Of a stretch of 64,000 nucleotides of DNA, positions 19,863-41,101 are shown one piece after another. The translations under genes and the position numbers were made by a program. The notes below the pieces were generated by a model that did no database searches, was not told where the DNA came from, and worked only from the letters and a program-made list of their open reading frames with translations. Origin of the DNA: Accumulibacter sp. (GTDB lineage: Bacteria > Pseudomonadota > Gammaproteobacteria > Burkholderiales > Rhodocyclaceae); the NCBI GenBank assembly GCA_024235695.1, contig JACKLX010000005.1, positions 177,708 through 241,707 on the forward strand. The letters are read 5' to 3'. Each line of letters begins with the position of its first letter. Within the stretch, counting starts at the first letter, position 1.

Positions 19863-19878
19863 TGGACGGTGGCGCACA
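19863..19878. promoter_or_regulatory. Crp-like dyad site 1
   Basis: TGGACGGTGGCGCACA matches 11 of the 14 fixed positions of TGTnCGCTAGCGnACA. It lies 145 bases upstream of the crp copy 1 start. No good -10 is seen at the standard spacing, so it is the weakest of the series with a gene assigned. Confidence 0.4.
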
Positions 19879-19944
19879 TAGGGGCGCTGCCATGTGCCTG
19901 TGGCACGCTGCGGTAGCAGTGGCGACGGCACCCGATGCGCCGAC

Positions 19945-20682
19945 TTAGCGAGTGATCGCCTCCGGGAGCAGGCGATCGAACTCCTTCCTGACGACCGCGT
20001 AGCACTCGCAGCAGCGCGCCTCCAGACCGGCCCGGTCGACTACGGTGATGCGCCCGCGCTGATAGGCGATCAAGCCGGCGCGCTGCAAGTTGCCGGCGGC
20101 CTCGGTAACCCCCTCGCGGCGTACGCCGAGCATGTTGGCGATCAGTTCCTGCGTCATCACCAGTTCGTTCGAGAGCAGGCGGTCTAGGGAGAGCAGCAGC
20201 CAGCGGCACAGTTGCTGGTCGAGCGAATGATGGCGGTTGCACACCGCCGTCTGCGCCATCTGCGTCAGCAGAGCCTGGGTGTAGCGCAGCAACAGGCGCT
20301 GCATCGGGCCGGCACGATAAAACTCATCCTTGAGCACCTGGCCCGGCAAGCGGTAGGCGTGGCCGGCGCTTTGCACAACGGCGCGGCTCGACGTGCTTTC
20401 GCCGCCCATGAACAGCGACACGCCGACAATCCCCTCGTTACCGACCACGGCGATCTCAGCCGACGAGCCGTCCTCCATGACATAGAGCAGGGACACGATG
20501 GCGCTAGTGGGGAAGTAGACATGGCGCATCTGAATGCCGGATTCGTAGAGCACTTCGGCGAGCGGCATTGGGACCAGTTCCAGACTGGGAAGGAGGCGCG
20601 CGTATTCGTCCGCCGGCAGCGCGGCGAGCAGGTGGTTCTGGCGCGGGTCATGCGTGGCAGACACCTGGCGGAGCGAGGGCAT
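19945..20682 (-). CDS. Crp/Fnr-type transcriptional regulator, copy 2
   Basis: This 245-residue regulator has a beta-roll sensor domain (about 20-130), a dimerisation helix (about 125-150) and a winged helix with [24 protein letters not shown]. Arg and Glu stand at the positions of CRP Arg180 and Glu181, while CRP Arg185 is replaced by Glu. A Crp-family TGT half-site with a changed core would fit. There is no iron-sulfur cysteine pattern of Fnr and no recognisable cAMP pocket. The ATG at 20682 was chosen by alignment with copy 3 (26025-26765), which is about 92% identical by eye. It is divergent to a 99-residue unknown gene and both share the dyad at 20782, which suggests autoregulation. Confidence 0.9.
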
Positions 20683-20757
20683 GGCGGTTGACCCGGTGAT
20701 CAGCAGCGATCGGACGAGTTCGCCGACGCGCTGGGATTCAAGCTTGCAAGTATGTTG

Positions 20758-20763
20758 ACTATA
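20758..20763 (-). promoter_or_regulatory. -10 hexamer of crp copy 2
   Basis: On the minus strand this reads TATAGT, 75 bases before the gene. The centre of dyad site 2 is 26.5 bp upstream of its first base, and the site covers the -35 position. The same 26.5-bp spacing is found at crp copy 3. Confidence 0.55.
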
Positions 20764-20781
20764 CACGCGCCGTACCGGCCA

Positions 20782-20797
20782 TGTGCAGCAGCGCACA
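20782..20797. promoter_or_regulatory. Crp-like dyad site 2, between crp copy 2 and a 99-residue gene
   Basis: TGTGCAGCAGCGCACA keeps both outer TGT/ACA arms and the AGCG core. On the plus strand a CAGGCT begins 29.5 bp from its centre (20819); on the minus strand TATAGT begins 26.5 bp away. It can therefore serve both divergent genes. Confidence 0.6.
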
Positions 20798-20916
20798 GAC
20801 GCAGCCGGGCGTTCGGCGCAGGCTCTACACGCTCATGGCGAGACGCTGTGGATCGGACCTCACCCGTGTCGCCGCCGCCGCTCGCTTCCAATCGTCAAAC
20901 AGTCACCGGAATCCGC

Positions 20917-21216
20917 ATGGACAACCATCAATTCACGACCCAAGTGGCTCTGGAGTTTCATCGGCGCGTGGCGGCGATCATCGCTGCTGTCCAGGCCGGA
21001 ATGGGAGACAACGGCGTGCATGAGCTGCTCGGCTACGCCACCGACTTCGCAGTCGGCGAGGCCCGCGGACGGCAGACCCTGGTGCTGAAGAGCCGCCACC
21101 ATTCGAGCTGTGTGCACCTTCAATGGGAAACCATCCTCGGCGATGGCCCCGCTGATCGGCAACTCGTGGACGACGCCATTCAGAGCGCGATCAACGACCT
21201 CGTCCGACGGTCATGA
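20917..21216 (+). CDS. 99-residue conserved protein of unknown function, copy 1
   Basis: I do not recognise the family. The protein is soluble, with no signal peptide or membrane helix. An N-terminal amphipathic helix contains EFHRRVAAIIAAVQAG, followed by a mixed segment (LLGYATDFAVGEARGRQTLVLKSR) and a C-terminal helix (DRQLVDDAIQSAINDLV). A paralogue at 40549-40848 shares the FHRR-AAII-AVQAG, LLGY-TD, ILGD and AINDL/AINEL motifs at about 50% identity. Both copies start at a Crp-like dyad and both are divergent from a crp-like gene or remnant. The context suggests an accessory factor of the regulon. The start was set by alignment of the two copies. Confidence 0.75.
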   Translation: MDNHQFTTQVALEFHRRVAAIIAAVQAGMGDNGVHELLGYATDFAVGEARGRQTLVLKSRHHSSCVHLQWETILGDGPADRQLVDDAIQSAINDLVRRS

Positions 21217-21253
21217 CTTTCAGGTACCGGCTATTGCCGCCGACCAACCGCTG

Positions 21254-21269
21254 TGCGCGCCAGCGTACA
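21254..21269. promoter_or_regulatory. Crp-like dyad site 3
   Basis: TGCGCGCCAGCGTACA matches 12 of 14 fixed consensus positions. It lies 38 bases after the 99-residue gene and 116 bases before site 4. The rest of the 361-base gap 21217-21577 holds site 4 and the osmB leader. Confidence 0.45.
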
Positions 21270-21369
21270 GCGAGCGTCCTGAATTCGCTGGCCGATTGCC
21301 GGCCTGGCCGATCGCCGCAATGTCTGTGCGGCGTGGCAGCAGCCAGCACCCTCCTCGATTGTGCGCCTG

Positions 21370-21385
21370 TGTTCGCTGGCAGACA
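21370..21385. promoter_or_regulatory. Crp-like dyad site 4, osmB-like copy 2 promoter
   Basis: TGTTCGCTGGCAGACA is identical to site 7 at 27018 in front of the other intact osmB-like gene. The hexamer TAGCCT begins at 21407, exactly 29.5 bp from the dyad centre, as in class II Crp-activated promoters. Transcription from there would give a leader of about 160 bases. Confidence 0.65.
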
Positions 21386-21511
21386 GACCGCCAGAGCGGT
21401 TCTGTGTAGCCTGAATTGATCCGGCGCGGCAACTGTGCGGCGACTGCGCCGCGCTGACGCGCGACGCTGGCAAGAAGCGTGCGCGTCGCGAAACGAAATG
21501 TTTGTGCGCCT

Positions 21512-21533: not shown

Positions 21534-21577
21534 ACGAGACGTGCCAGAAGGACCATTTTTCACGAAGAGGCAAGGCC

Positions 21578-21799
21578 ATGAAAACGATTCGGAGAGTTGC
21601 CTTGAGCGCACTCGTCGCAGCCCTTCTGTTCGGCCTTGGTGGCTGTGCGGACATGTCGGCGCAGGACAAGAGTACCAGCATCGACGCCGGCGCCGGCGCC
21701 CTCGGAGTATCCACTCTGCCGGACGGCAGCACCGTCGGGACCGTCGGCGGCGCCGCTGTCGGCGGCGTGATCGGCGACGACAGCGGCAAGAAGAAGTGA
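21578..21799 (+). CDS. OsmB-like glycine-zipper lipoprotein, copy 2
   Basis: This 73-residue lipoprotein has a signal peptide ending in the lipobox GGC near residue 23. It then has a glycine-rich segment (GTVGGAAVGGVIG) that pairs membrane helices. E. coli OsmB, an osmotically induced outer-membrane lipoprotein, has the same pattern. In this copy the first zipper is degraded: IDAGAGALGVSTLPDGSTVG replaces the IGAGAGAVGGAVLTGGSAIG of the copy at 27257, and the tail is GDDSGKKK instead of GHEVSK. GAGG precedes the ATG. It is followed by a small lipoprotein gene 123 bases on, the same order as at 27257-27806. Confidence 0.82.
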   Translation: MKTIRRVALSALVAALLFGLGGCADMSAQDKSTSIDAGAGALGVSTLPDGSTVGTVGGAAVGGVIGDDSGKKK

Positions 21800-22129: not shown

Positions 22130-22143
22130 GATGTCGGAAACGC

Positions 22144-24841: not shown

Positions 24842-24923
24842 ACCGGACACTGACGGCTGGTGCTGCTTCGTCGCCACATGGCCGTCGATCGGATTGCGTC
24901 GGGCAGACCCGCGTAGGCGCCGA

Positions 24924-24939
24924 TGTTTGCTAGCGCACA
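24924..24939. promoter_or_regulatory. Crp-like dyad site 5, csbD promoter
   Basis: TGTTTGCTAGCGCACA matches 13 of 14 fixed positions and contains the palindromic GCTAGC. It lies 132 bases before csbD. TAGGCT begins 30.5 bp from its centre and GATAGT 25.5 bp from it; either could be the -10. Confidence 0.6.
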
Positions 24940-25071
24940 GAACTCGATCCCCGTTTGATAGTAGGCTCTCGACATCGACACCGGACATGGCTTGTTTGAT
25001 GACCGGTGTCGCAGGACGAACCGAAGCTGGCTCGGCCATCAGAAGTATCAACCGTTAGTCAGGAGTTAACG

Positions 25072-25275
25072 ATGAACAAAGATCAAGTCAAGGGCGCAGC
25101 AAAGGACCTCGGCGGCAAAGTGCAGGAAAAGGTCGGCAAACTGGTAGGCAGCAAGGAGCAGCAGGCAAAGGGACTGAAACACCAGGCTGAAGGCAAAGTG
25201 CAGAAACACGTCGGCGACGTGAAAGAGAACCTCAAACACGCCAGGGACGCCGTCAAGGACATCTTGAAACCGTAA
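25072..25275 (+). CDS. CsbD family stress-response protein
   Basis: This 67-residue, highly charged helical protein of the CsbD family begins MNKDQVKGAAKDLGGKVQEK and repeats the K-Q-x-x-G pattern (SKEQQAKGLKHQAEGKVQ). CsbD proteins are abundant under general or osmotic stress in many bacteria, but their biochemical role is not known. AGGAG lies seven bases before the ATG. It is preceded by dyad site 5, which places it in the proposed Crp-like regulon. A short hairpin-free gap follows. Confidence 0.92.
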   Translation: MNKDQVKGAAKDLGGKVQEKVGKLVGSKEQQAKGLKHQAEGKVQKHVGDVKENLKHARDAVKDILKP

Positions 25276-26024: not shown

Positions 26025-26765
26025 TTAGCGGGTGACCGCGTCCGGGAGCAGGCGATCGAACTCCTTCTTGACCACCGCGTAGCACTCGCAGCAGCGCGCC
26101 TCCAGACCGGCCCGGTCGATTACGGTGATATGCCCGCCGCGCTGATACGTGATCAGGCCGGCGCGTTGCAAGTTGCCGGCAGCCTCGGTAACGCCCTCGC
26201 GGCGTACGCCGAGCATGTTGGCGATCAGTTCCTGCGTCATCACCAGTTCGTTCGAGAGCAGGCGGTCTAGGGAGAGCAGCAGCCAGCGGCACAGTTGCTG
26301 GTCGAGCGAATGATGGCGGTTGCACACCGCCGTCTGCGCCATCTGCGTCAGCAGAGCCTGGGTGTAGCGCAGCAACAGGCGCTGCATCGGGCCGGCGCGA
26401 TAGAACTCATCCTTAAGCACCGGGCCCGGCAAGCGGTAGGCGCGGCCGGCGCTCTGCACAACAGCCCGGCTCGGCGTGGTTTCGCCGCCCATGAACAGCG
26501 ACACGCCGACGATCCCCTCGTTGCCGACGACGGCGATTTCAGCCGACGAGCCGTCCTCCATGACATAGAGCAGAGACACGATCGAGGTGGTAGGGGAATA
26601 GACATGGCGCATCGGAACGCCGGACTCGTAGAGCGCCTCGGCGAGCGGCATCGGCACCCCCTCCAGACTGGGAAGGAGGCGCGCGTATTCGTCCGCCGGC
26701 AGCGCGGCGAGCAGGTGGTTCTGGCGCGGGTCATGCGTCGCGGACACCCGGGGGAGCGAGGGCAT
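26025..26765 (-). CDS. Crp/Fnr-type transcriptional regulator, copy 3
   Basis: This 246-residue regulator is nearly identical to copy 2 (about 20 differences, one inserted residue). It has the same sensor domain and the same recognition helix, [13 protein letters not shown]. At the DNA level a block of about 200 bases (26194-26398 against 20113-20318) looks almost unchanged, which points to recent duplication or gene conversion. Upstream are a perfect TATAAT (26846-26841, minus strand) and dyad site 6. As with copy 2, the gene appears to control itself. The osmB-like and small lipoprotein genes follow divergently to the right. Confidence 0.9.
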   Translation of the reverse strand: MPSLPRVSATHDPRQNHLLAALPADEYARLLPSLEGVPMPLAEALYESGVPMRHVYSPTTSIVSLLYVMEDGSSAEIAVVGNEGIVGVSLFMGGETTPSRAVVQSAGRAYRLPGPVLKDEFYRAGPMQRLLLRYTQALLTQMAQTAVCNRHHSLDQQLCRWLLLSLDRLLSNELVMTQELIANMLGVRREGVTEAAGNLQRAGLITYQRGGHITVIDRAGLEARCCECYAVVKKEFDRLLPDAVTR

Positions 26766-26840: not shown

Positions 26841-26846
26841 ATTATA
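26841..26846 (-). promoter_or_regulatory. -10 hexamer of crp copy 3
   Basis: The minus strand reads TATAAT, 75 bases upstream of the gene, with dyad site 6 centred 26.5 bp further upstream. The region 26766-27256 (491 bases) holds only this promoter, sites 6 and 7 and the osmB leader; no gene is seen in it. Confidence 0.65.
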
Positions 26847-26864
26847 TGTGCCCCGTATTGGCCA

Positions 26865-26880
26865 TGTGCCGTAGCGTACC
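26865..26880. promoter_or_regulatory. Crp-like dyad site 6, crp copy 3
   Basis: TGTGCCGTAGCGTACC matches 11 of 14 fixed positions and sits at the same distance from its -10 as site 2 does at crp copy 2. It covers the -35 position of the crp copy 3 promoter. Confidence 0.55.
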
Positions 26881-27017
26881 GACGTAAATAGGTGTTCGGC
26901 GAAGCCACCGCACACGCCTTCGGCGAGGCGCGCGGATGGGGCATCCCGCCAGCGTTGGGACGACGCTCGAAAGCTGTGTGGCGTGGGAATGACCGGCACC
27001 CTGCTCGATTGCTCCTG

Positions 27018-27033
27018 TGTTCGCTGGCAGACA
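27018..27033. promoter_or_regulatory. Crp-like dyad site 7, osmB-like copy 3 promoter
   Basis: TGTTCGCTGGCAGACA is identical to site 4. TATTCT begins at 27055, 29.5 bp from the dyad centre. The flanking bases CCTG before and GACCGC after are also shared with site 4. Confidence 0.65.
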
Positions 27034-27190
27034 GACCGCGAACGCAGTTCTGGGTATTCTCGGACAAGTGATTCCCGCTCGAACATCTGCTGTATCTGCA
27101 CCGTGGCAATGCCCGGTTGAAAGCAGTGCGGTCCTGGCGAAAAGAACCACGAGATCATTACCTGGATCGGGCGAAGATGTGCTTCGTCAA

Positions 27191-27212: not shown

Positions 27213-27256
27213 GCATGACCTCCCCGAAACGCAACATTCAACAAAGAGGTAAGCCC

Positions 27257-27472
27257 ATGAAAACGATTCAGAGATTTACGTTCAGTGCCCTCGCCACAAC
27301 CGTTCTGTTCAGCCTCGGTGCTTGTGCCGGCATGTCGGAGCAGGGCAAGAATACCGCCATCGGCGCCGGCGCCGGGGCCGTCGGCGGAGCCGTCCTAACG
27401 GGCGGCAGCGCCATCGGAACCGTCGGCGGCGCGGCTGTCGGCGGCGTCATCGGTCACGAAGTCAGCAAGTGA
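27257..27472 (+). CDS. osmB: OsmB-like glycine-zipper lipoprotein, copy 3
   Basis: This 71-residue lipoprotein is the best-preserved OsmB relative of the three. After a signal peptide with lipobox GAC come KNTAIGAGAGAVGGAVLTGG and SAIGTVGGAAVGGVIGHEVSK, which closely follow the mature region of E. coli OsmB. OsmB is an osmotically inducible outer-membrane lipoprotein of uncertain function. AAGAGG precedes the ATG. It is controlled, by inference, through dyad site 7. A long hairpin at 27479 separates it from the small lipoprotein gene. Confidence 0.87.
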   Translation: MKTIQRFTFSALATTVLFSLGACAGMSEQGKNTAIGAGAGAVGGAVLTGGSAIGTVGGAAVGGVIGHEVSK

Positions 27473-28096: not shown

Positions 28097-28171
28097 CTAG
28101 CGAAGGCCAAAAAACGACAAGATCACCATCACGATGACGACCAGGCCGACGATGTAAATGATGCTGTTCAT
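28097..28171 (-). CDS. 24-residue membrane peptide
   Basis: The minus strand encodes MNSIIYIVGLVVIVMVILSF followed by FGLR and a TAG. It is one transmembrane helix with a short basic end. GGGAGAA lies seven bases before the ATG. The upstream promoter is well placed: TAAGGT (28246-28241, minus) begins 29.5 bp from the centre of dyad site 8. Tiny hydrophobic proteins of this sequence type recur in proteobacterial genomes, to my recollection, but have no known function. It could act on a membrane partner, as other single-helix stress peptides do; this is inference. Confidence 0.7.
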   Translation of the reverse strand: MNSIIYIVGLVVIVMVILSFFGLR

Positions 28172-28267
28172 GTGATTTCTCCCGGTAGGGGTTGAGTGAC
28201 CCAATCGGCTGAATCGGGCGAGTGCAGGTCACTGGTTCCTACCTTACTCGTCTCAGGCCGAGCGTTC

Positions 28268-28283
28268 TGTACGTTTGCGTACA
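28268..28283. promoter_or_regulatory. Crp-like dyad site 8, 24-residue peptide promoter
   Basis: TGTACGTTTGCGTACA is a perfect palindrome in its outer six bases per arm and matches 12 of 14 fixed positions. On the minus strand TAAGGT begins 29.5 bp from its centre and leads to the 24-residue peptide gene. The 341-base gap 28172-28512 holds this site, site 9 and a weak canonical CRP match. Confidence 0.65.
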
Positions 28284-28313
28284 CAACAAGCAGATGCACT
28301 GCATCGCCGGCCG

Positions 28314-28329: not shown

Positions 28330-28366
28330 GTGCCGCTCACTGCCGGCCCTCTGTTCCCTGGTTTTC

Positions 28367-28382
28367 TGTGTGCCAGCGAACA
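28367..28382. promoter_or_regulatory. Crp-like dyad site 9
   Basis: TGTGTGCCAGCGAACA matches 12 of 14 fixed positions. It lies 130 bases before the secreted protein gene at 28513. No convincing -10 stands at the usual spacing in either direction. Confidence 0.5.
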
Positions 28383-28512
28383 GACGACAGGCGTTGCTTG
28401 GTCACAACATGCACGCAATCGGTTTTTGCCAAACAGCCTGGCAGCGCCATGCGGCGTAACACTCGTCCTGGCGTGCACATCAGGGCCTCGGCCCGTCAAT
28501 CGGAGTTTCAGC

Positions 28513-28935
28513 ATGAAGAACAAATTTCTTGTCCACAGCCTGCTCGCCATTGCGATGACCTGTGCGTCGTTCGTGACCAATGCCAGCCCTGATGGCGGAC
28601 CCGTCTTCCACGAGGCCGGTGGTTTGGCCTATGCATCGGGCGGCGTGGGCGAGGAGTCGCGCCAGCTGCTCAGCGCCCGCGCCAGCGAGTTCAACCTGAA
28701 GCTGGTATTTGCCATGACATCCGGGGCTTACACGAGCGGCGTGCGGGTTGCCATCGCTGACGCGAAGGGCAAGACGCTCCTGGAGGCCACCTCCGATGGA
28801 CCATGGTTCCTGGCGAAATTGCCGGTGGGCCAATACCGGGTGGTCGCGAGTTACGCAGGCAAGGCGCGTGAACAGTCCGTGGCACTGGACGCGATAGGGT
28901 TGCGGACGGTCGATTTCCGTTGGAGCGACGAATAA
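28513..28935 (+). CDS. secreted protein with carboxypeptidase-regulatory-like beta domain
   Basis: This 140-residue protein has a Sec signal peptide (cleavage likely near TNASPDG). The segment GGVGEESRQLLSARASEFNL is followed by a beta-sandwich-like stretch (VRVAIADAKGKTLLEATSDGPWFLAKLPVGQYRV). The latter resembles the carboxypeptidase regulatory-like or transthyretin-like fold found in many exported proteins. The ATG at 28513 was chosen because the signal peptide begins there and GGAG precedes it. Its function is unknown; a periplasmic binding or scaffold role is possible. Dyad site 9 lies upstream. Confidence 0.75.
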   Translation: MKNKFLVHSLLAIAMTCASFVTNASPDGGPVFHEAGGLAYASGGVGEESRQLLSARASEFNLKLVFAMTSGAYTSGVRVAIADAKGKTLLEATSDGPWFLAKLPVGQYRVVASYAGKAREQSVALDAIGLRTVDFRWSDE

Positions 28936-29549
28936 GGGCGCACGCAAGGTCGCTGCAAGACAACAGGAACTGCTTCTGCCAGATTGGTTTACGCGGCTTG
29001 AGGTTGGTCGTCAATCATGGCGTCCAACGGTGCAAACGGCCATCGGCGGCCATTTGTCTTCCATCTGCTACCGGCGCAGGCACATCGCGGCCATCGTCGG
29101 CGGCGCTCCACTTCGGCCTGCGTACGCTAGCGCACAGACTGCGCCGGGTCATGCGCCTAGGCTAGTCATGTCATCGGGCGTTTCCAAGCAATCCGTCCAC
29201 CGCTGAGTGCGGTCGCCACACCGTCTCCTTGTCCGTCGGTCGTCGCACGCGGGGTTTGCTGGGGAATACCGGGTGTGATGGACGATGCCTGATTGGCAAT
29301 TTCGCCGTTCGGGTCACGAGTACAAGGAGCTTGCAAAGCTCAAATGGGACCAGCAACCGTATAGACGCCCACTTGATCCGATCGATGCGGTGGCGACCGG
29401 TCGTCCGGGTGAAGGTCATCAACGGCGTCATACGGTCGCACGGCAGAGATGCGCGCGAACGGGTGTGAAGATGCGGCAGCGATCGTTGGGCCCTGCCGCC
29501 CGGTACTGAAAACGGTGGGGCCCGACAGCAGCAGATACAGGAGGCAATC
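28936..29549. other. 614-base gap with a strong dyad site but no clear gene
   Basis: Dyad site 10 and its TAGGCT (29158) point to transcription from about 29170, nearly 380 bases before the GlsB gene. An ATG frame of 74 codons at 29285 lacks a ribosome site and a recognisable product. The stretch may be a long leader, hold a small RNA, or carry a gene I cannot see. Confidence 0.4.
29121..29136. promoter_or_regulatory. Crp-like dyad site 10, nearly perfect consensus
   Basis: CGTACGCTAGCGCACA differs from TGTnCGCTAGCGnACA only at the first base. TAGGCT begins at 29158 on the plus strand, 29.5 bp from the centre, so it faces the GlsB and BON genes. Confidence 0.65.
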
Positions 29550-29804
29550 ATGTCCTTACTCGCATGGATCGTACTTGGACTCATCGCCGGCTTCATCGCC
29601 AGCAAGATGGTTAGCGGAACCGGGCAGGGTGCCGTCATGGACATCCTTCTCGGAGTTGTCGGCGCAGTCATCGGCGGCTGGCTCTTCAATACCTTCGGGA
29701 TGGCCGGTGTCGGCGGCTTCAATCTCTACAGCCTGTTTGTCGCCGTCGTCGGCGCAATCGTGCTGCTGGTGGCGTACCACGCCGTTTCGCGCGGCGTTCG
29801 CTAG
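29550..29804 (+). CDS. GlsB/YeaQ/YmgE family stress membrane protein
   Basis: This 84-residue protein has three transmembrane helices (about 2-20, 30-50 and 58-78). The family pattern is present: GLIAGFIASKMVSGTGQG, then LGVVGAVIGGWLF. The family is also called transglycosylase-associated, after its neighbours in other genomes, and is linked to general and acid stress. AGGAGG lies seven bases before the ATG. It is followed by the BON lipoprotein gene about 100 bases on. Confidence 0.92.
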   Translation: MSLLAWIVLGLIAGFIASKMVSGTGQGAVMDILLGVVGAVIGGWLFNTFGMAGVGGFNLYSLFVAVVGAIVLLVAYHAVSRGVR

Positions 29805-31633: not shown

Positions 31634-34600
31634 TTGAACGCCGACACCAAGCGCAGCGGCTATTTGCGGCCATTGAACACCCGGCTTCACGGTACCGGAA
31701 GGCTTGGCAGCTTACCCGAAGCAGAACCCCCGTTGCGATCCGAGTTGTTCAGCGCCGATCAAATGGCGCTGCATGGCGAAGCGCTCGCGGCCTCGCACAA
31801 GCTGATCCCCGGGCAGGCACCGGACCGGCTCCTGGCTCGGCTGGCAGACAACGAACGCACCCTGGTTGGCGTGTGCGAGCTGTTGACGACGGCAGCCACC
31901 GAGAGCCGCCGGGTGATGCCGGCCGGGGAATGGCTGCTCGACAACTTCTATCTCATCGAAGAGCAGATCCGCACGGCCAAGCGGCACTTGCCCAAGGGCT
32001 ACAGCCGTGAACTCCCGCGCCTGGCGCACGGGCCGTCGGCCGGACGTCCACGAGTGTATGACATCGCGCTGGAAACCGTTGCGCATGGCGATGGTCGCGT
32101 CGATACGGATAGTCTCTGCGGCTTCGTGACGGCCTACCAGCGGGTTAGCCCGATGAAGCTTGGCGAGTTGTGGGCGATCCCGATCATGCTGCGGCTGGCA
32201 GTGATCGAGAATCTGCGTCGCGTCGGCGTGCGGATCGCCGCCAGTTGGGCCGAGCGAAACCTGGCCGCCACCTGGGCAGACCGGATGGCGGAGACCGCCG
32301 TCAGCGATCCGAAGAGTTTGATCCTGGTGATCGCCGACATGGCGTGCTCGGATCCTCCGATGGTCGGCGGCTTCGTCGCAGAACTTGCGCGGCGCTTGCA
32401 GGGCCGCGGCCCCACTCTGGCGCTGCCCTTGACCTGGATCGAGCAGCGCCTGTCGGAGTCGGGTCTGACAATCGAGCACCTCGTGCAATCCGAGAACCAG
32501 CAGCAGGCCGCCGATCAGGTCTCGATCAGCAACAGCATCGGCAGTCTGCGGATTCTCGGTGCGACGGACTGGCGCACCTTCGTCGAGACCCAGAGCGTCG
32601 TCGACAACACGCTGCGTCAAGACCCGGGCGGCGTCTATGGCCGCATGGATTTTGCCACCCGCGATCGATACCGCCATGCGATCGAGAGGATAGCGAAGAA
32701 GGGGGGCCTTTCCGAAGGCGAGATAGCCCGCAAGGCGGTCGAGATGGCACGCCTTGGCGCAGTGGCGATCGACGCCGATGGCGGCCCTGAGGATCGCGCC
32801 GGGCACGTCGGCTACTACCTGATCGACAAGGGTTTGCCGCGGCTCGAGCGGATCGCGCAAGTTCGCCTTTCCGGCACCGAGGCCTTGTGCAGGACGGCAG
32901 CCCGCTTCCCTTTGCTGGCGTACCTGGGAGGCATCGCGCTGATCACGGTGATTGTCTCCGGAGGCCTGCTGGCGCAGGCGTTTGCCGCCGGAACGCCGGA
33001 CTGGCTGCTGCTGCCGATCGGCGTCCTCTCGCTGCTGGCTGCCAGTCAACTGGCTGGAGCGCTGGTGAACTGGTTGGCAACGCTGCTGATGACCCCGCAT
33101 TCTCTACCCAGAATGGATTTCGCTGAAGGCATCCCGGCGCAGGCACGCACGCTGGTAGTGGTCCCGACCATGCTTACCAGCCCCTCGGGAGTTGAGGATC
33201 TGATCGAGGCGCTGGAAGTGAGGTTTCTGGCGAATCGCGATCAACGCCTGCACTTTGGCCTGTTGACCGATTTCCGCGACGCTCGCCAGGAATCGCTGCC
33301 GGAGGACGAATCGCTGCTGCAACTGGCGCGGACAAGGATAGGCGAGCTGAACGAGAAGTACGGCAGTGAGCGGGCCGAAATCAGGGACGACCTCTTCTTC
33401 CTCTTTCATCGCCCGCGGCGATGGAACCCCAAGGACCGGCTGTGGATGGGCCATGAGCGCAAGCGCGGCAAGCTGGCCGACTTGAACGCGCTGCTACGCG
33501 GTAGCGCGAAGGACGGCTTTGCGCTCGTCGTCGGCGATCGCACGGTTCTCTCAGCCGTCAAGTACGTGATTACGCTGGACACCGATACGCAGCTGCCGCG
33601 CGATGCAGCGCGGCTATTCGTCGGCGCCATGGCGCACCCGTTGAATCGCCCCGGCTACGATGAAGCGAAGCGGCGCATCACCGACGGCTACGGCATCCTG
33701 CAGCCGCGCGTGGCGATCAGCCTGCCGGGGACGAACCGCTCACGCTATGCGCGCCTGTACGGAGGCGAGCCAGGCATCGACCCGTACACGCGCGCCGTCT
33801 CGGATGTCTACCAGGACGTGTTCGGCGAAGGCTCGTTCATCGGCAAGGGAATCTACGACGTCGATGCATTCGAGCAAGCGCTTGGCGGGCGCTTCCCCGA
33901 GAATCGCATCCTTAGCCACGATCTCCTGGAAGGATGCTACGCACGCTCGGGCCTGTTGAGCGATGTGCATCTGTACGAGGATCACCCGGCCCGCTATAGC
34001 GCAGACGTGCGCCGTCGCTACCGCTGGATCCGCGGCGATTGGCAGCTGGCGGGGTGGCTGCGCAGGCGCGTTCCAGCCGCGGCGGCCGGCGCGGACAACA
34101 CGCGGCAGAAGAATCCGCTGTCGATGCTGTCGCAGTGGAAGCTCTTCGACAACCTGCGACGAAGTCTGGTCCCCGCAGCGCTGACACTGCTGTTGCTGTC
34201 GGGATGGACGCTCCTTTCGCCAGCGTGGTTGTGGACCGTGGCGGTGATCGGCATCGTGCTCCTTCCCTCCTTGTGCGCCGCCATCCTCGACTTCTTGCGC
34301 AAGCCGGAGGAGGTGCACCCGAGACAGCACCTCGCAAGCATCGCACGCTCGGCCTACCGGCACTTCACGCAGATCGTGTTCGAACTCGCCTGTCTGCCGT
34401 ACGAGGCGTATTTCAGTGTCGATGCCGTTGCCCGCACCGCCTGGCGGATGCTGGTGACACGCGCACGATTGCTCGAATGGAATCCTTCGGGGGAGGCGGA
34501 TCGCGAGTCCGGCGAGGGCGACCGTGGCACGCTCGCCGGTAGTTTTCGAACGATGTGGTTCGCCCCTGCCATGGCCGCCGTGACGGCGATCCACCTGGTG

Positions 34601-37600
34601 ACATCGCGGCCGGCGGTGCTGGCGGTGGCCGGGCCGATCCTGCTCCTGTGGTTCGCCTCGCCGCTCATTGCCTGGTGGATCAGCCGTCCGCTGGCTCCTC
34701 GCGATGCCACCCTGACCGTCGAGCAGACGCTCTTTCTGCGCGCGCTGTCGCGCCGCACCTGGGCGTTCTTCGACAACTTCGTCGGCCCGGACGGCCATTG
34801 GCTGCCACCGGACAACCTGCAGGAGTATCGCATCGCTGCGGTGGCGCATCGTACATCGCCGACCAACATCGGGCTGGCGCTGCTGGCGAATCTGTCGGCC
34901 TACGACTTCGGTTACATCGTCGCCGGAAAAGTCCTCGAGCGCACGGCGAACACCCTGAACACGATGGCCGGACTGGAACGGTACCGGGGGCACTTCTATA
35001 ACTGGTACGACACGCAGACGCTGCAGCCGCTGCCGCCGCTGTACATCTCGACGGTGGACAGCGGCAACCTCGCCGGCCATCTGCTGACCCTGCGTGCGGG
35101 TCTGCTTGCCCTCGCCGACGACAAGATACTGCCGGGGCGGCTGTTCGAAGGCTTGGGCGACACCCTCAGGATTCTTCTCGGCGAGGCGGACGACGCCGCC
35201 GTGGACCAGGCGACGGCATTTCGCAACGAACAGGAGTCGGCGTCGGCGGCCCCTCCGGACAGCCTCGCGGCAGCGCGCGCACGCCTCGAGCGCCTGGCGA
35301 CCTGCGCTGCCGAACTTGCCGCGCAGGTCACGGAAAGTCCGCATGGCGGGGACGACACGGTCCGCGAGCGCGACAGAAAAGGTCGGGACGAGGGCTGGGC
35401 GCAGGCACTTTCGCGCCAATGCCGTGAGGCACTGGACGAGTTGCGCTTCCTCGCCCCGTGGCAATTCATACCGTCGGCACCGGGTGAGAAAGCGTCGTTC
35501 GCGAATATTGTGGCCATACCGACGCTGCGCGAACTGGCCATGGCAGGGTGTGCCCAGGCCGTCGACAGGATGGCGGCGATCGAGCGCCTGGCACTGCAAT
35601 GCCTTCAACTCGCGCGCATGGAGTATGACTTCCTGTACGACAAGCAACGCCATCTGTTGAGCATTGGCTACAACGTCGCCGAGCGGCGCCTGGACTCGGG
35701 CTACTACGACCTGCTGGCCTCGGAAGCGCGCTTGTGCAATTTCGTGGCGATTGCGCAGGGGCAACTGCCGCAGGAGAGCTGGTTCGCCCTGGGGCGCCTG
35801 CTCACCGACACCGACGGAGAACCGGTGCTGCTATCCTGGAGCGGTTCGATGTTCGAGTACCTGATGCCGCTGCTGGTGATGCCGACCTACGACAACACGC
35901 TGCTCGACCAGACCTGCAAGGGGGCGGTCGCCAGGCAGATCGCGTATGGACAGCAGCGTGGCGTGCCCTGGGGCATGTCGGAATCCGGCTACAACACGGT
36001 CGACGTACATCTCAATTACCAGTACCGCGCCTTCGGCGTACCCGGCCTGGGACTCAAACGCGGACTGGCCGACGATCTGGTCATTGCGCCCTATGCCTCG
36101 GCCCTCGCGCTGATGGTGGCACCGAAGCAGGCGTGCCTGAATCTGCAGCGACTCGCGGCCGAGGGGTTCATGGGCCGCTTTGGCTTCTTCGAAGCGATCG
36201 ACTACACGCCGGCACGACAGCGACGCGGGCAATCGCACGTGCTGGTGCGCTCCTACATGGCACATCATCAGGGCATGAGCCTGCTGGCGCTGGCCTATCT
36301 GGTGCTGCAGCGTCCGATGCAGCGGCGATTCGAATCGGAACCGCTGTTCCAGGCGATCATGTTGCTGCTTCAGGAGCGCATTCCCAGAACCACGGCCTTG
36401 TTTACGCACACGGCTCAACTCGCGGCGGTGCGCTCGCCATCGGTCGCCGCGGAAACGCCGATTCGGGTGTTCCGCCGCCCCGACACACCGGTCCCGGAGG
36501 TGCAGTTGTTGTCGAACGGCCGCTATCACGTGATGGTCACCCATGCCGGCGGCGGCTATAGCCGCTGGAAGGACCTCGCCGTCACGCGCTGGCGCGAAGA
36601 TCGCACCTGCGATCACTGGGGTACCTTCTGCTACGTTCGCGATGCGCAGAGCGCGGCGTTCTGGTCGACTGCCTATCAGCCAACGCGCAAGCACCCGGAA
36701 CACTACGAAGCGATCTTTTCCGAGGGGCGAGCCGAGTTCCGCCGCCGCGATTCCGTGACTGCCGGCGATGGCGCTGGCGACGGCCAATTCGAGACGCACA
36801 CCGAGATCATCGTCTCGCCGGAGGATGACATCGAGTTGCGCCGGGTGCGGATCACCAACCGATCGCGACAACGCCGGGTGATCGACGTCACGAGCTACGC
36901 CGAAGTGGTGATCGCGCCGCCGGCCGCGGACGCCCTGCATCCGGCCTTCAGCAATCTGTTCGTGCAAACCGAGATTCTGCGGGAACGCTGCGCCATCCTG
37001 TGTACGCGCCGGCCCCGCTCGCTCGGCGAGCAAGCGCCCTGGATGTTCCACCTGATGACAGCGCACGGTGCCGACATCGGCGAGCTGTCCTACGAGACGG
37101 ATCGCCTGCGTTTCATCGGCCGTGGCAGAAGCGCCGCTGCGCCGCTGGCGATGAGCGACCCGGCAGCGCTTTCCTGCGGCGAGGGTTCGGTGCTCGATCC
37201 GATCGTCGCCATCCGCTGTTCGCTGGCGCTTGATCCGGAGCAGATGGCCACCATCGACATGGTGTCGGGCATCGGCAACAGCCGTGACATGGCCTTGAGC
37301 CTGATCGAGAAATACCAGGACCGGCACCTCTCGGACCGCGTCTTCGATCTGACCTGGACGCACAGCCAGGTGGTGCTGCGGCAACTCAACGCCAGCGAGG
37401 CCGACGCGCAACTCTATGCGCGCCTGGCCAGCTCAATCATCTACGCCAACGGGTCGCTGCGCGCGGACGCCGCTGTGCTCACCACCAATCGCCGCGGGCA
37501 GTCGGGGTTGTGGGGTTACGGCATCTCCGGCGATCTGCCGATCGTGCTGCTGCAGATCGGCGATGCGGCCAATATCGATCTCGTGCGTCAGCTCGTACAG

Positions 37601-40384
37601 GCGCACGCCTACTGGCGCCTGAAGGGACTGGCGGTGGACCTGGTGATATGGAACGAGGATCACGCGGGCTATCGGCAGCGATTGCAGGAACAGATCATGG
37701 GATTCATCGCCTCGGGCATCGCGGCGAGCCTGATCGACCGGCCGGGCGGCATCTTCGTGCGGCCTGCAGAGCAGATATCCAGTGAAGATCGCGTGCTGGT
37801 CCAGTCGGTCGCGCGCGCCGTCATCTCGGACGGCCGGGGAACACTGGCAGAGCAACTCGACTACCATCGGCTGGCGGAGCCGCGCGTGCCACGGCTGACG
37901 GCGAGTCGCACCCATCGAAGCGAGGAACCCCCCGACACGACGCGCGCCGACGAGACCCCGCGCCGCAACCTCGAGCTGTTCAACGGGTTGGGAGGATTCA
38001 CTCCGGATGGGCGAGAATACGTCATCACCCTGGCGCCCGGCGAGGTGACGCCGGCGCCGTGGGTCAACGTCCTGGCGAATCCGACCTTCGGGACAATCGT
38101 CTCGGAGAACGGCGTCGGCTACACCTGGGGTGAAAACGCGCACGAATTCCGCCTGACGCCCTGGCACAACGACCCGGTGTGCGACGCCAGCGGCGAAGCC
38201 CTGTACCTGCGCGACGAAGAGACCGGCCACTTCTGGTCGCCCACGCCGCTGCCCGTGCGTGCCGCGGCGCCCTATGTGAGCCGGCATGGATTCGGCTACA
38301 GCGTCTTCGAGCACCGCTCGGGCGGTATTCGCTCCGAGCTGTGGATCTACGTGGCGATCGACGCTGCCGTCAAGTTCTCGGTACTGAAAGTGCGCAACGA
38401 ATCGGGCCGGCCGCGCAAGCTCTCCGCCACCGGCTATGTCGATTGGGTGCTGGGAGATCTGCCCGCGAAAACGGCCATGCACGTCACCACCGAAATCGAT
38501 CCGCGCAGCGGCGCCTTGTTTGCCAGAAACGCGTATAGCGCTGAATTCGCCGATCGGCTTGCCTTCTTCGACGTCGATGATCCGAGGCGCAGCCTGAGCG
38601 GCGACCGCACCGAGTTCCTCGGGCGCAACGGTACGCTGAAAGATCCGGCCGCCATGCGACGCGCGTACCTGTCCGGCAGGGTGGGCCCTGGCCTCGATCC
38701 CTGCGGCGCGATCCAGGTCGGCTTCGAACTGGCCGACGCCGACGAGATCGAGATCGTCTTCCGGCTCGGCGTCGGCCACAACGCCGATGACGCCGGCACG
38801 CTCGTGCAACGCTTCCGCGGTTCATTGGCCGCGCGCAGCGCACTCGAAGCGGTGTGGCAGTACTGGAACCACACGCTCGGCGCGGTGCAGGTGGAAACAC
38901 CGGACCAGACGATCAATGTCCTGACCAACGGCTGGCTGCTCTACCAGACACTGGCGTGCCGGGTCTGGGGACGCAGTGGCTACTACCAATCCGGCGGCGC
39001 GTTCGGCTTCCGCGACCAGTTGCAGGACGTGATGGCGCTGATCCACTGTGAGCCCCGACTGGTGCGCGAACATCTGCTGCTGTGCGCGAGCCGTCAGTTC
39101 CAGGAGGGAGATGTCCAGCACTGGTGGCATCCACCGTCGGGCCGCGGCGTGCGCACGCATTGTTCGGACGACTACCTGTGGCTACCGCTGGCGGTGTGCC
39201 GCTACGTGACCAGCAGCGGCGACACCGGCGTGCTCGATGAACAGCTACATTTCCTGGAAGGCCGGCCGGTTAACCCGCAGGACGACTCCTACTACGACCT
39301 GCCCGGACGCTCGGCCGAGGCGGCCAGCCTGTATGAGCACTGTCTGCGCGCCATCCTGCACGGTCTGCGCTTCGGTGAGCACGGCCTGCCGCTGATCGGC
39401 TCGGGCGACTGGAATGACGGCATGAATCTGGTGGGAATCGGCGGCAAGGGCGAGAGCGTCTGGCTGGGCTTCTTCCTTTGTGAAGTTCTCGGGCATTTCG
39501 GCGACCTGGCGCGTCTGCGGGGCGACGCCGCCTTCGCCGAGCGCTGCGCGGCGGAGGGCACTCGGCTGCGCCGCGATCTCGAGCGCCATGGCTGGGATGG
39601 CGAATGGTACCGTCGCGGCTACTTCGACGACGGCACGCCGCTCGGTTCGGCAAGCAGCGCCGAGTGCCAGCTGGATTCAATCTCGCAGAGTTGGTCGGTG
39701 CTCTCCCGGGCGGGCGACGCCATGCGCTCGCGCATGGCCATGCAGGCGGTGGACGAGCGGCTGGTGCGCCGCGAGCACGCGCTCGTCCAGCTTCTCGATC
39801 CGCCCTTCGACAAATCGAATCTCGATCCCGGCTACATTCGCGGCTACGTGCCGGGCGTACGGGAGAACGGCGGGCAATACACGCACGGGGCGATCTGGGC
39901 GGCCATGGCATTCGCCGCCCTGGGCGACGCTCGGCGCGCATGGGAACTCACGGCGATGATCAACCCGGTGAACCATGGAAAATCAGCGCGTGGTATCGCC
40001 ATCTACAAGGTCGAACCCTACGTCATGGCGGCCGACGTCTATGCGCGCGCGCCGCACACCGGCCGTGGCGGATGGAGCTGGTACTCCGGCTCGGCCGGCT
40101 GGATGTATCGGCTCATCGTCGAATCCCTCGTCGGTCTCAGGCTCGAAGGGGACAGGCTGCATGTCGCTCCGTGCCTGCCCGCGAGCTGGCAGGCATTGAA
40201 GATTCACTACCGATACCGGGAGACCGTTTATCACATCGCCGTCTCGCAGGAACGCGTCGGCGAGCACGGTGCGCGCCTTCAGATGACCGTCACGGTCGAC
40301 GGCGAAGAACGAAGCGACCTGATGATCCCTCTGACAGACGATCATCGCGAACACCTGGTCGAGGTCGTCTTGCGTGCCGATTAA
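31634..40384 (+). CDS. ndvB: cyclic beta-1,2-glucan synthase (GT84 + GH94)
   Basis: This 2916-residue membrane enzyme polymerises UDP-glucose into beta-1,2-glucan and cyclises it, giving osmoregulated periplasmic glucans. Order of parts: an N-terminal cytoplasmic region (1-410), paired helices near 420-485, a family-84 glycosyltransferase domain with LDTDTQLPRDAARLF near 649, further helices near 850-900 and 975-1020, a glucoamylase-like domain (YQYRAFGVPGLGL near 1460), and a C-terminal GH94 phosphorylase domain with GSGDWNDGMN near 2590 that sets chain length. All expected domains are present. The start is TTG at 31634, with AAGGA ahead. It follows the stress genes on the same strand. Confidence 0.93.
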   Translation: MNADTKRSGYLRPLNTRLHGTGRLGSLPEAEPPLRSELFSADQMALHGEALAASHKLIPGQAPDRLLARLADNERTLVGVCELLTTAATESRRVMPAGEWLLDNFYLIEEQIRTAKRHLPKGYSRELPRLAHGPSAGRPRVYDIALETVAHGDGRVDTDSLCGFVTAYQRVSPMKLGELWAIPIMLRLAVIENLRRVGVRIAASWAERNLAATWADRMAETAVSDPKSLILVIADMACSDPPMVGGFVAELARRLQGRGPTLALPLTWIEQRLSESGLTIEHLVQSENQQQAADQVSISNSIGSLRILGATDWRTFVETQSVVDNTLRQDPGGVYGRMDFATRDRYRHAIERIAKKGGLSEGEIARKAVEMARLGAVAIDADGGPEDRAGHVGYYLIDKGLPRLERIAQVRLSGTEALCRTAARFPLLAYLGGIALITVIVSGGLLAQAFAAGTPDWLLLPIGVLSLLAASQLAGALVNWLATLLMTPHSLPRMDFAEGIPAQARTLVVVPTMLTSPSGVEDLIEALEVRFLANRDQRLHFGLLTDFRDARQESLPEDESLLQLARTRIGELNEKYGSERAEIRDDLFFLFHRPRRWNPKDRLWMGHERKRGKLADLNALLRGSAKDGFALVVGDRTVLSAVKYVITLDTDTQLPRDAARLFVGAMAHPLNRPGYDEAKRRITDGYGILQPRVAISLPGTNRSRYARLYGGEPGIDPYTRAVSDVYQDVFGEGSFIGKGIYDVDAFEQALGGRFPENRILSHDLLEGCYARSGLLSDVHLYEDHPARYSADVRRRYRWIRGDWQLAGWLRRRVPAAAAGADNTRQKNPLSMLSQWKLFDNLRRSLVPAALTLLLLSGWTLLSPAWLWTVAVIGIVLLPSLCAAILDFLRKPEEVHPRQHLASIARSAYRHFTQIVFELACLPYEAYFSVDAVARTAWRMLVTRARLLEWNPSGEADRESGEGDRGTLAGSFRTMWFAPAMAAVTAIHLVTSRPAVLAVAGPILLLWFASPLIAWWISRPLAPRDATLTVEQTLFLRALSRRTWAFFDNFVGPDGHWLPPDNLQEYRIAAVAHRTSPTNIGLALLANLSAYDFGYIVAGKVLERTANTLNTMAGLERYRGHFYNWYDTQTLQPLPPLYISTVDSGNLAGHLLTLRAGLLALADDKILPGRLFEGLGDTLRILLGEADDAAVDQATAFRNEQESASAAPPDSLAAARARLERLATCAAELAAQVTESPHGGDDTVRERDRKGRDEGWAQALSRQCREALDELRFLAPWQFIPSAPGEKASFANIVAIPTLRELAMAGCAQAVDRMAAIERLALQCLQLARMEYDFLYDKQRHLLSIGYNVAERRLDSGYYDLLASEARLCNFVAIAQGQLPQESWFALGRLLTDTDGEPVLLSWSGSMFEYLMPLLVMPTYDNTLLDQTCKGAVARQIAYGQQRGVPWGMSESGYNTVDVHLNYQYRAFGVPGLGLKRGLADDLVIAPYASALALMVAPKQACLNLQRLAAEGFMGRFGFFEAIDYTPARQRRGQSHVLVRSYMAHHQGMSLLALAYLVLQRPMQRRFESEPLFQAIMLLLQERIPRTTALFTHTAQLAAVRSPSVAAETPIRVFRRPDTPVPEVQLLSNGRYHVMVTHAGGGYSRWKDLAVTRWREDRTCDHWGTFCYVRDAQSAAFWSTAYQPTRKHPEHYEAIFSEGRAEFRRRDSVTAGDGAGDGQFETHTEIIVSPEDDIELRRVRITNRSRQRRVIDVTSYAEVVIAPPAADALHPAFSNLFVQTEILRERCAILCTRRPRSLGEQAPWMFHLMTAHGADIGELSYETDRLRFIGRGRSAAAPLAMSDPAALSCGEGSVLDPIVAIRCSLALDPEQMATIDMVSGIGNSRDMALSLIEKYQDRHLSDRVFDLTWTHSQVVLRQLNASEADAQLYARLASSIIYANGSLRADAAVLTTNRRGQSGLWGYGISGDLPIVLLQIGDAANIDLVRQLVQAHAYWRLKGLAVDLVIWNEDHAGYRQRLQEQIMGFIASGIAASLIDRPGGIFVRPAEQISSEDRVLVQSVARAVISDGRGTLAEQLDYHRLAEPRVPRLTASRTHRSEEPPDTTRADETPRRNLELFNGLGGFTPDGREYVITLAPGEVTPAPWVNVLANPTFGTIVSENGVGYTWGENAHEFRLTPWHNDPVCDASGEALYLRDEETGHFWSPTPLPVRAAAPYVSRHGFGYSVFEHRSGGIRSELWIYVAIDAAVKFSVLKVRNESGRPRKLSATGYVDWVLGDLPAKTAMHVTTEIDPRSGALFARNAYSAEFADRLAFFDVDDPRRSLSGDRTEFLGRNGTLKDPAAMRRAYLSGRVGPGLDPCGAIQVGFELADADEIEIVFRLGVGHNADDAGTLVQRFRGSLAARSALEAVWQYWNHTLGAVQVETPDQTINVLTNGWLLYQTLACRVWGRSGYYQSGGAFGFRDQLQDVMALIHCEPRLVREHLLLCASRQFQEGDVQHWWHPPSGRGVRTHCSDDYLWLPLAVCRYVTSSGDTGVLDEQLHFLEGRPVNPQDDSYYDLPGRSAEAASLYEHCLRAILHGLRFGEHGLPLIGSGDWNDGMNLVGIGGKGESVWLGFFLCEVLGHFGDLARLRGDAAFAERCAAEGTRLRRDLERHGWDGEWYRRGYFDDGTPLGSASSAECQLDSISQSWSVLSRAGDAMRSRMAMQAVDERLVRREHALVQLLDPPFDKSNLDPGYIRGYVPGVRENGGQYTHGAIWAAMAFAALGDARRAWELTAMINPVNHGKSARGIAIYKVEPYVMAADVYARAPHTGRGGWSWYSGSAGWMYRLIVESLVGLRLEGDRLHVAPCLPASWQALKIHYRYRETVYHIAVSQERVGEHGARLQMTVTVDGEERSDLMIPLTDDHREHLVEVVLRAD

Positions 40385-40428
40385 GCTCGTGCTCCTCGCC
40401 TTGCACGCCTGCGGATCGGGCAACTTCT

Positions 40429-40444
40429 TGACCGCTAGCAAACA
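40429..40444. promoter_or_regulatory. Crp-like dyad site 11, orphan
   Basis: TGACCGCTAGCAAACA matches 12 of 14 fixed positions and contains GCTAGC. It lies between two convergent gene ends (ndvB and the 99-residue gene copy 2), with no -10 at the usual spacing on either strand. It may be a relic of a rearrangement. Confidence 0.45.
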
Positions 40445-40548
40445 CCATCGCCCTGGCATCTCTGATGCTGATGAATGGAACTGCAAGGAGCTCTCTCGGG
40501 CACCGCGATAACAAGATCGACTACGGCGCAGCGATCGCCTGCAGGGGA

Positions 40549-40848
40549 TCAGGACAACTCATTGATTGCGCTCGCGACGGCCTCGTCCACCCGTTGTCGA
40601 TCGCGCGGAGCGTCGCCGAGAATGGTGTCCAACTGCAGCCGGATGTAGGCCGACCGGTTGCGGGTTTTCAGGATCAGGGTCTGCAGGCCACGTTTCTGAC
40701 CGGATCCGTAATCGGTGACGTAGCCGAGCAGATCATGCGCACCGCTTTGCCAGCTTCCGGCCTGGACGGCATCGATGATCGCGGCCATGCGTCGGTGGAA
40801 CTCCTGTGCCATTTCGACCGTGAATTGCGTGAATTGCGGCTTGTCCAT
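40549..40848 (-). CDS. 99-residue conserved protein of unknown function, copy 2
   Basis: This is a paralogue of the protein at 20917 at about 50% identity. Shared motifs are EFHRRMAAIIDAVQAG, LLGYVTDYG, TLILKTR, DTILGDAP and ASAINEL. It is soluble, with helices at both ends. The ATG at 40848 follows CAGGA and aligns with the start of copy 1. Upstream are dyad site 12 and, divergently, the remnant of a crp-like gene, so the arrangement mirrors copy 1 beside crp copy 2. No known family is recognised. Confidence 0.75.
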   Translation of the reverse strand: MDKPQFTQFTVEMAQEFHRRMAAIIDAVQAGSWQSGAHDLLGYVTDYGSGQKRGLQTLILKTRNRSAYIRLQLDTILGDAPRDRQRVDEAVASAINELS

Positions 40849-41085
40849 GAGTGTTCCTGTGGCGGGTTGATCGTTGAGGGTCGCGTCGCCAATGGTGCGC
40901 GGAGGCGGCGAACGTCCGGGCAGCCGGCGACCATCGTGTGTCCCCGTTGCGGCGCAGATTGCAGCGGCTGCTCGCTCGAGAGGAAGCCCAGGCCGCTGTT
41001 TCCTCCAGCAGCGCGTCTGCCCGACCCGCGATCCCGGCGCCGACCTGCTAGCGAGTGCATTCTGCGCCGGCCTTCTTGCGGCATC

Positions 41086-41101
41086 TGTACGCTGTCGCAC
41101 A
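41086..41101. promoter_or_regulatory. Crp-like dyad site 12, 99-residue gene copy 2
   Basis: TGTACGCTGTCGCACA matches 12 of 14 fixed positions. On the minus strand CAGAAT (41064-41059) begins 29.5 bp from its centre, directed at the 99-residue gene. The crp remnant lies on the other side. The rest of 40849-41200 holds no gene. Confidence 0.6.

Follow-up and report, generated by a model that had tools for sequence, protein, structure and literature searches.

Which protein reads a palindrome that is repeated between the genes of one small part of an Accumulibacter genome? The stretch in question comprises 64,000 nucleotides of Accumulibacter sp. (contig JACKLX010000005.1, positions 177,708 to 241,707; G000:C5:177708-241707 in our numbering), hereafter the window, and belongs to a genome of 3.83 Mb that is 83.7% complete. 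In the original prediction, about twelve 16-bp sites of the window were described as operators of a local Crp-like stress regulon. Our analysis indicates that the sites very probably represent the operator recognized by a Crp/Fnr subfamily whose genes lie in this cluster too and which has a regulon of its own.

The Operator and Its Sites

All twelve 16-mers were found at the predicted coordinates with one to three mismatches to TGTNCGCTAGCGNACA; G2, C11, A14 and C15 are invariant among them, and all twelve lie outside the called genes of the window. At up to three mismatches the window contains 15 matches, compared with a mean of 3.66 and a maximum of 10 in shuffled sequences. For a weight matrix, related loci were collected by homology to Crp copy 3 of the window (Table 1), and the best 80 of 587 confirmed loci were used (1.33 Mb in total). 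The four best are Accumulibacter loci, 86–88% identical; the window and the Accumulibacter loci L005–L008 were excluded from training, leaving only other genera. With this matrix 11 of the 12 sites score 15.15–24.85 bits, the next best window position reaching 12.73. Site 40429 was rejected as a member, as it scores 4.58 bits and a -10-like box is missing where one would usually be found. In the 50 best matches of the related loci, T at position -1 and A at position 18 are conserved at 83% each, neither having been used for selection. Therefore, the operator is about 20 bp long, a palindrome TCTGTNCGCTAGCGNACAGA rather than the 16-mer first described. The prediction thus holds for the position, the intergenic location and the invariant bases of the sites, but neither for the membership of 40429 nor for the length of the motif.

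In the whole own genome, 18 sites were found at up to two mismatches, nine of them (40429 included) in the 20-kb cluster of the window, while the reversed pattern gave eight genome-wide. The own-genome matrix scan covered the window and 20 stretches (391.8 kb) picked partly around such matches; this sample outside the window gave one site of at least 16 bits (L102:10038, 17.75).

Repeats of this kind could be a by-product of gene duplication, or a repeated element, with no regulatory function. The crp, OsmB-like and 99-residue genes are indeed duplicated in the cluster. Sites 21368 and 27016 are identical and lie inside duplicated osmB upstream regions, sites 20780 and 26863 lie inside duplicated crp upstream regions, and neither pair is independent. 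Nevertheless, the operator occupies the longest identical block (26 columns) of the osmB upstream alignment while the flanks diverge. The palindrome moreover precedes unrelated genes in many genera, mostly between genes and often at a fixed distance from a -10-like box. The duplication account is contradicted by these cross-genus data, and we give it next to no credence.

Association with the Regulator Subfamily

In the 80 loci, 156 occurrences of the 16-mer, spread over 60 loci, have up to two mismatches and 50 have up to one, while eleven palindromes with permuted cores, taken as control, occur 1–27 and 0–1 times, respectively. By matrix, 294 sites of at least 16 bits were obtained in 76 of the 80 loci. 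The sites had been expected between genes and not equally often inside them, and this was borne out: 251 of the 294 lie outside called genes and 43 mostly inside, though genes make up 82% of the bases.

The association was also followed in 274 genomes of the window's class, its own genome counted in, of which 31 carry the regulator (match at E ≤ 1e-40). Four or more sites are present in 18 of the 31 genomes with the regulator and in two of the 243 without. The 31 genomes contain 130 occurrences of the 20-mer at up to three mismatches (reversed 35), and the 243 without the regulator contain 103 (reversed 143). In 27 of the 31 (G000, G026, G106 and G266 were omitted, the last three being without matches), the distance to a regulator gene is at most 25 kb for 70 of 124 sites, where 2.5 are expected. 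The regulon is mostly, not always, local: in G230, four of nine matches are on other contigs or more than 100 kb from the regulator.

The TGT-N10-ACA outline is common to these sites and to those of E. coli CRP, so a canonical CRP, FNR or DNR-type regulator might be thought to own them. The window, however, contains no match to the usual CRP (TGTGAN6TCACA) or FNR (TTGATN4ATCAA) consensus at up to one mismatch. The DNR/NNR-type pattern occurs once exactly and 11 times at up to one mismatch in the 64 kb, and zero and three times, respectively, at 18–42 kb. As the presence of the motif tracks the Crp/Fnr subfamily across the 274 genomes, a canonical owner is very improbable.

Plasmids tell the same story. 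Of the 68 plasmid records with a regulator match 16 were examined, and 20 sites of at least 14 bits were found in six of seven plasmid loci, where permuted controls average 0.03–0.23 per locus; each of the seven shares at most 2.2 kb of alignable DNA with any training locus. One of them is pKLC102, a conjugative element of Pseudomonas aeruginosa, in which a GH94 gene lies two small genes from the regulator; another, L114, is counted twice, here and among the eight Ser181 loci below. In Mycetohabitans (L134) a Glu181 protein of 57.8% identity is accompanied by one matrix site. Across beta- and gammaproteobacteria, the palindrome is conserved before regulator genes and before the genes next to them.

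The Regulators and Residue 181

A protein search of the own genome returned, as Crp/Fnr matches, only the three copies of Table 1 and the decayed fourth. All three contain the Crp-type helix-turn-helix PF13545 (4.1e-15 to 9.4e-15) and the cyclic-nucleotide-binding-like N-terminal domain of the Crp/Fnr superfamily. The Glu/Arg-Ser cassette that binds the phosphate of cyclic adenosine monophosphate (cAMP) and the N-terminal cysteine cluster that holds the iron-sulphur centre of FNR are textbook features of these proteins. In a profile alignment the cAMP cassette is not kept, the Glu of the GlxR GELS motif facing a gap and PRTSS being lost, and copy 3 has no Cys before C148, hence no FNR-type N-terminal cysteines. 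C148, C226 and C228 are invariant. Homology gave no lead to the effector, as a phmmer search returned no close relative of solved structure (best E 7e-5). cAMP is an unlikely signal.

The original prediction proposed copies 2 and 3 as the regulators and linked a changed operator core to their residue 185. The clustering of the motif around the regulators agrees with a Crp-like regulon of changed core, but the residue that varies with loss or alteration of the operator appears to be the one corresponding to CRP 181, not 185, and copy 1 (Val181/Lys185) has a site too. Control of the regulators' own genes, also predicted, is supported: a site of at least 16 bits lies within 350 bp upstream of 47 of 65 Glu181/Glu185 regulators, 19 of 19 with Val181/Lys185 and 7 of 12 of other Val181 types. 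Among other genes of the same 80 loci, many of them targets, the proportion is 17.7% of 1275.

These proportions could mean that the operator is read only by copy-1-type regulators, the Glu181 copies reading another sequence. The single regulator match of G154 (43% identical) is copy-1-like, and the genome holds four motif matches against none in the control, one of them (two mismatches) 151 bp before that gene. In G230, on the other hand, the single match is 68% identical and comes with nine motif matches against one reversed. Glu181-type crp copies are also preceded by sites in four Accumulibacter loci, and Ser181 loci have an operator unlike that of Glu181 loci in the exploratory comparison that follows. 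We therefore consider a copy-1-only operator improbable and retain the reading in which the subfamily as a whole recognizes the site.

The four of the 80 loci without a site of at least 16 bits (L067, L074, L075 and L083) encode regulators with Ser (three) or Pro (one) in place of Glu at CRP-181. An upstream site is present for none of seven Ser181/Glu185 regulators, vs. 47 of 65 with Glu181/Glu185 (Fisher 3e-4). The Ser181 loci appear to carry a changed operator, the variant TCGGTACG with the 20-mer pattern TCGGTACGN4CGTACCGA. This occurs 13 times in the 156 kb of eight Ser181 loci (reversed 0), in six of the eight, and three times in the 909 kb of 57 Glu181 loci (reversed 1). For the 20-mer of the Glu type the trend runs the other way, with 2 occurrences in the Ser181 and 94 in the Glu181 loci. 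In seven further Ser181 loci, GGTACGN4CGTACC was found 26 times at up to one mismatch (reversed 3), in four of them 138–142 bp before a gene annotated CsbD. A symmetry-only search upstream of the Ser181 crp genes had given no alternative operator, which emerged only on whole-locus comparison; no site was found at the Ala181 locus L132. We regard the changed operator as exploratory, and several points count against it. The pattern was first spotted by eye in the loci where it was counted, 6 of 17 Ser181 16-mer matches and 8 of the 26 lie inside called genes, and five of the seven further loci share 6–21 kb with the discovery locus L075. The two that do not (L128 and L129, two loci only) gave four matches vs. 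two reversed. With these reservations, the covariation of residue 181 and operator is the most direct sign that the Crp proteins read the sites, and it amounts to a hint. As a separate observation, the Burkholderia plasmids L127, L130 and L131 have much the same gene set around their Ser181 regulators, drawn from CsbD, DUF3309, DUF3096, PRC-barrel, glycine zipper, desaturase and cation:proton antiporter genes.

Promoter Geometry

At class II promoters of E. coli CRP and FNR the activator site is centred at -41.5. A distance of 29 bases between the site centre and the start of the best -10-like hexamer was found in 111 of 402 site-gene pairs, and one of 30 bases in 29; an offset of 26 was found in 16 pairs and every other offset in at most 10. 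An offset of 29 places the site at -41.5, so the peak of predicted -10 boxes corresponds to class II geometry. With offsets of 15–44 considered, the peak at 29 comprises 113 of 302 non-crp pairs, and the distribution for crp genes is broader (15 at 29, 11 at 26 and 9 at 30, of 100). In the window the boxes at 29 and 30 belong to putative targets, while those of crp copies 2 and 3 are found at 26 (Table 1), and this shift suggests autorepression. Weak boxes at -41.5, together with crp boxes that are strong but overlap the site, would fit activation of the targets and repression of the regulators' own genes.

Probable Target Genes

Of the predicted targets, the OsmB-like, csbD, membrane-peptide and 99-residue genes keep their sites in Accumulibacter relatives, as does the carboxypeptidase-regulatory-like gene; the assignment of glsB/BON is weaker since about 420 bp separate glsB from the site upstream of it. 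Distances between gene and site agree with those in Accumulibacter loci outside the training set. For csbD the distance is 141 bp in L007 (window 140), and for the 99-residue gene 128, 123 and 124 in L006–L008 (window 127; another start is called in L005). It is 140 for the carboxypeptidase-like gene in L006–L008 (window 138) and 107 for crp in L005 and L008 (window 107; other starts are called in L006 and L007). For the copy-1-type crp it is 149, 149 and 152 in L005, L007 and L008 (window 152). L007 also has a 15.86-bit site 315 bp upstream of an OsmB-like gene, comparable with window site 21252. Against an overall 313 of 1393 genes with a site within 450 bp upstream, the count is 13 of 17 for OsmB-like, 11 of 17 for CsbD, 9 of 18 for BON, 4 of 4 for 99-residue and 3 of 4 for carboxypeptidase-regulatory-like genes. 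No Pfam model matches the 99-residue family, nor did viral contigs yield any relative. The "stress" role of the targets is one that we infer from their gene families.

Genes for GGDEF-EAL proteins recur beside operators (16 proteins in 15 loci). Other recurrent neighbours are DUF4398, PRC-barrel, desaturase, OmpA, Ysc84, phasin, DUF883 and DUF3309 proteins.

Table 1. Regulator genes, operators and target genes of the window; operator scores are in bits of the outside-genera matrix, and offsets run from site centre to start of the -10-like box
Feature	Position	Strand	Remarks
crp copy 1	19011..19718	-	recognition helix RRVGVTK (Val181/Lys185)
crp copy 2	19945..20682	-	RREGVTE; start is the ATG matching copy 3
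crp copy 3	26025..26765	-	RREGVTE
decayed fourth crp remnant	41233..41486	+	pieces in two frames with stops; 23.7-bit operator still upstream
operator upstream of crp copy 1	19861..19880	-	21.5; matching-place site in L005, L007, L008; no good -10 box
operator between crp copy 2 (-) and 99-residue gene (+)	20780..20799	.	16.8
-10-like box of crp copy 2	20758..20763	-	TATAGT; offset 26; site would be centred at -38.5
second operator, about 316 bp upstream of OsmB-like gene 1	21252..21271	+	15.15; no clear -10 box
operator of OsmB-like gene 1	21368..21387	+	20.4; TAGCCT box 21407-21412, offset 29, site at -41.5
operator of csbD	24922..24941	+	21.1; TAGGCT box 24962-24967, offset 30
operator of crp copy 3	26863..26882	-	15.7; TATAAT box 26841-26846, offset 26, site at -38.5
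operator of OsmB-like gene 2	27016..27035	+	20.4; TATTCT box 27055-27060, offset 29
operator of 24-residue membrane peptide gene	28266..28285	-	22.8; TAAGGT box 28241-28246, offset 29
operator 138 bp upstream of carboxypeptidase-regulatory-like gene	28365..28384	+	24.9; weak -10 box
operator upstream of same-strand run glsB, BON, AI-2E transporter, cyclic glucan synthase	29119..29138	+	24.5; TAGGCT box 29158-29163, offset 29
operator between second 99-residue gene (-) and decayed crp remnant (+)	41084..41103	.	23.7; CAGAAT box 41059-41064 (-), offset 29
99-residue gene, first copy	20917..21216	+	
99-residue gene, second copy	40549..40848	-	
OsmB-like lipoprotein gene 1	21578..21799	+	paralogue of gene 2; own Pfam match sub-threshold
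OsmB-like lipoprotein gene 2	27257..27472	+	Pfam Glycine zipper 2TM; OsmB model 93 bits, cut-off 98
csbD	25072..25275	+	PF05532, 51.1 bits, cut-off 40
24-residue membrane peptide gene	28097..28171	-	
secreted carboxypeptidase-regulatory-like protein gene	28513..28935	+	Pfam match under curated cut-off
glsB-type gene	29550..29804	+	Transgly_assoc
BON-domain lipoprotein gene	29907..30221	+	
GH94 cyclic beta-glucan synthase-like gene	31745..40384	+	ends same-strand run; without own operator

A few further features of the cluster were observed. A third OsmB-like frame without start codon (18781-18981, -) lies at most 30 bp from the stop of crp copy 1. Its counterpart in L007 is preceded by 275 bp that include an operator of its own, so in the window both promoter and operator may have been lost by deletion. 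A DUF3309-like frame (25722-25865, +) is broken by TGA; intact DUF3309 genes accompany the regulator at other loci. A small lipoprotein-like peptide with a CQK..EGPAE.AGK motif is present in three copies (18450-18650, 21923-22129 and 27612-27806), every one of which follows an OsmB-like frame and lacks its own operator. Plasmids of Acidovorax, Burkholderia and Paraburkholderia, as well as pKLC102, also have a GH94 or very long "glucoamylase family" gene near the regulator, though such genes rarely come with an operator of their own.

Evaluation and Proposed Mechanism

Several observations weigh against the operator and regulon proposed here. Apart from the four site-free loci, 18 of the 65 Glu181/Glu185 regulators have no site within 350 bp upstream, and the plasmid locus L112 has a Glu181 regulator and no site. 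Four regulator-bearing genomes do not exceed the reversed control (G017 2/3, G026 0/2, G106 0/0 and G266 0/1), and some others stay near it (G174 2/3, G209 3/3 and G213 1/2). A box with a score above 4 is found at an offset of 29–30 for six of the 11 window sites and only at 26 for two, while for 19861, 21252 and 28365 none of these offsets has a good one. No significant enrichment of sites was obtained for GlsB (1 of 3), small lipoprotein (3 of 18), AI-2E (0 of 6) and cyclic glucan synthase genes (1 of 16). GGDEF-EAL genes were rejected as preferred targets, 12 of 41 having a site (p 0.19). Moreover, the -10 matrix is crude and, like the gene caller, was made for this analysis; the loci share ancestry and several training loci share kilobases, so that the counts overstate independence.

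In the mechanism that we propose, a regulator dimer would bind the 20-bp site and contact RNA polymerase in class II fashion, thereby activating envelope and stress-type genes: the OsmB-like, CsbD and 99-residue families, the small membrane peptide and probably glsB-BON onward. At crp copies 2 and 3, where the near-consensus -10 box is 3 bp closer, the bound regulator would cover the -35 region and limit its own synthesis. A wider picture can be drawn, which we offer tentatively and do not favour on balance. The cluster might be a self-contained, partly mobile stress island in which multicopy orphan Crp/Fnr regulators drive local sigma-S-like envelope genes from class II promoters. They would sense something other than cAMP, perhaps through C148, C226 and C228, and have their own operator code, T or G at position 1 going with Glu or Ser at 181; the system would have moved onto conjugative elements such as pKLC102.

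Comparison with Known Systems

The system resembles class II regulation by E. coli CRP and FNR in the Crp/Fnr fold, the outline of the 16-bp dyad and a -10-like box that begins at a distance of 29.5 bp from the centre of the site. It differs in the core CGCTAGCG, the conserved outer T/A and the lack of CRP and FNR consensus matches in the window, and its regulators have neither the FNR cysteines nor, in the alignment, the Glu that binds the cAMP phosphate. MtbCRP, GlxR, A. fischeri FNR and NtcA, for which structures are solved, are 17–20% identical, and their ligand sites are unshared as far as the GlxR alignment shows.

Crp/Fnr proteins of related bacteria, Bcam1349 of B. cenocepacia and DPR-1/DPR-2 of Cycloclasticus, have been reported to bind cyclic di-guanosine monophosphate (PMC3584217, PMC8547461). 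They are like the present regulators in family, and GGDEF-EAL genes are seen here near operators. The 57.8% identical homologue of Mycetohabitans lies beside exopolysaccharide and sigma-54 regulator genes, which resembles what is reported of Bcam1349; the link stays tentative, the B. cenocepacia record being without annotation over that stretch. The targets given in those descriptions, exopolysaccharide, cellulose, fimbriae and polycyclic aromatic hydrocarbon genes, set these proteins apart from the system described here.

No operator or regulon of this subfamily is named in the titles and abstracts of the literature searched, outside which most subscription papers fall; Matsui et al. 2013, on Crp/Fnr target motifs, may report the motif already. 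While the kind of system is known, the operator and the regulon appear to be new. The regulators are annotated merely as "Crp/Fnr family" in the plasmid records examined and are carried by 31 of the 274 genomes of the window's class. The regulon is directly testable, since its operator is clear and both a promoter geometry and a candidate residue-base pairing are at hand; we know of no pure-culture genetics for Accumulibacter relatives.

The sigma-S (RpoS) regulon of E. coli includes OsmB, OsmY/BON, CsbD (YjbJ) and GlsB-type genes, and similar families are found here. Unlike in the sigma-S regulon, a Crp/Fnr operator near -41.5 precedes several of these genes, which would give bacteria, Accumulibacter relatives included, a second route besides sigma-S by which OsmB/CsbD/BON-type envelope genes could be switched.
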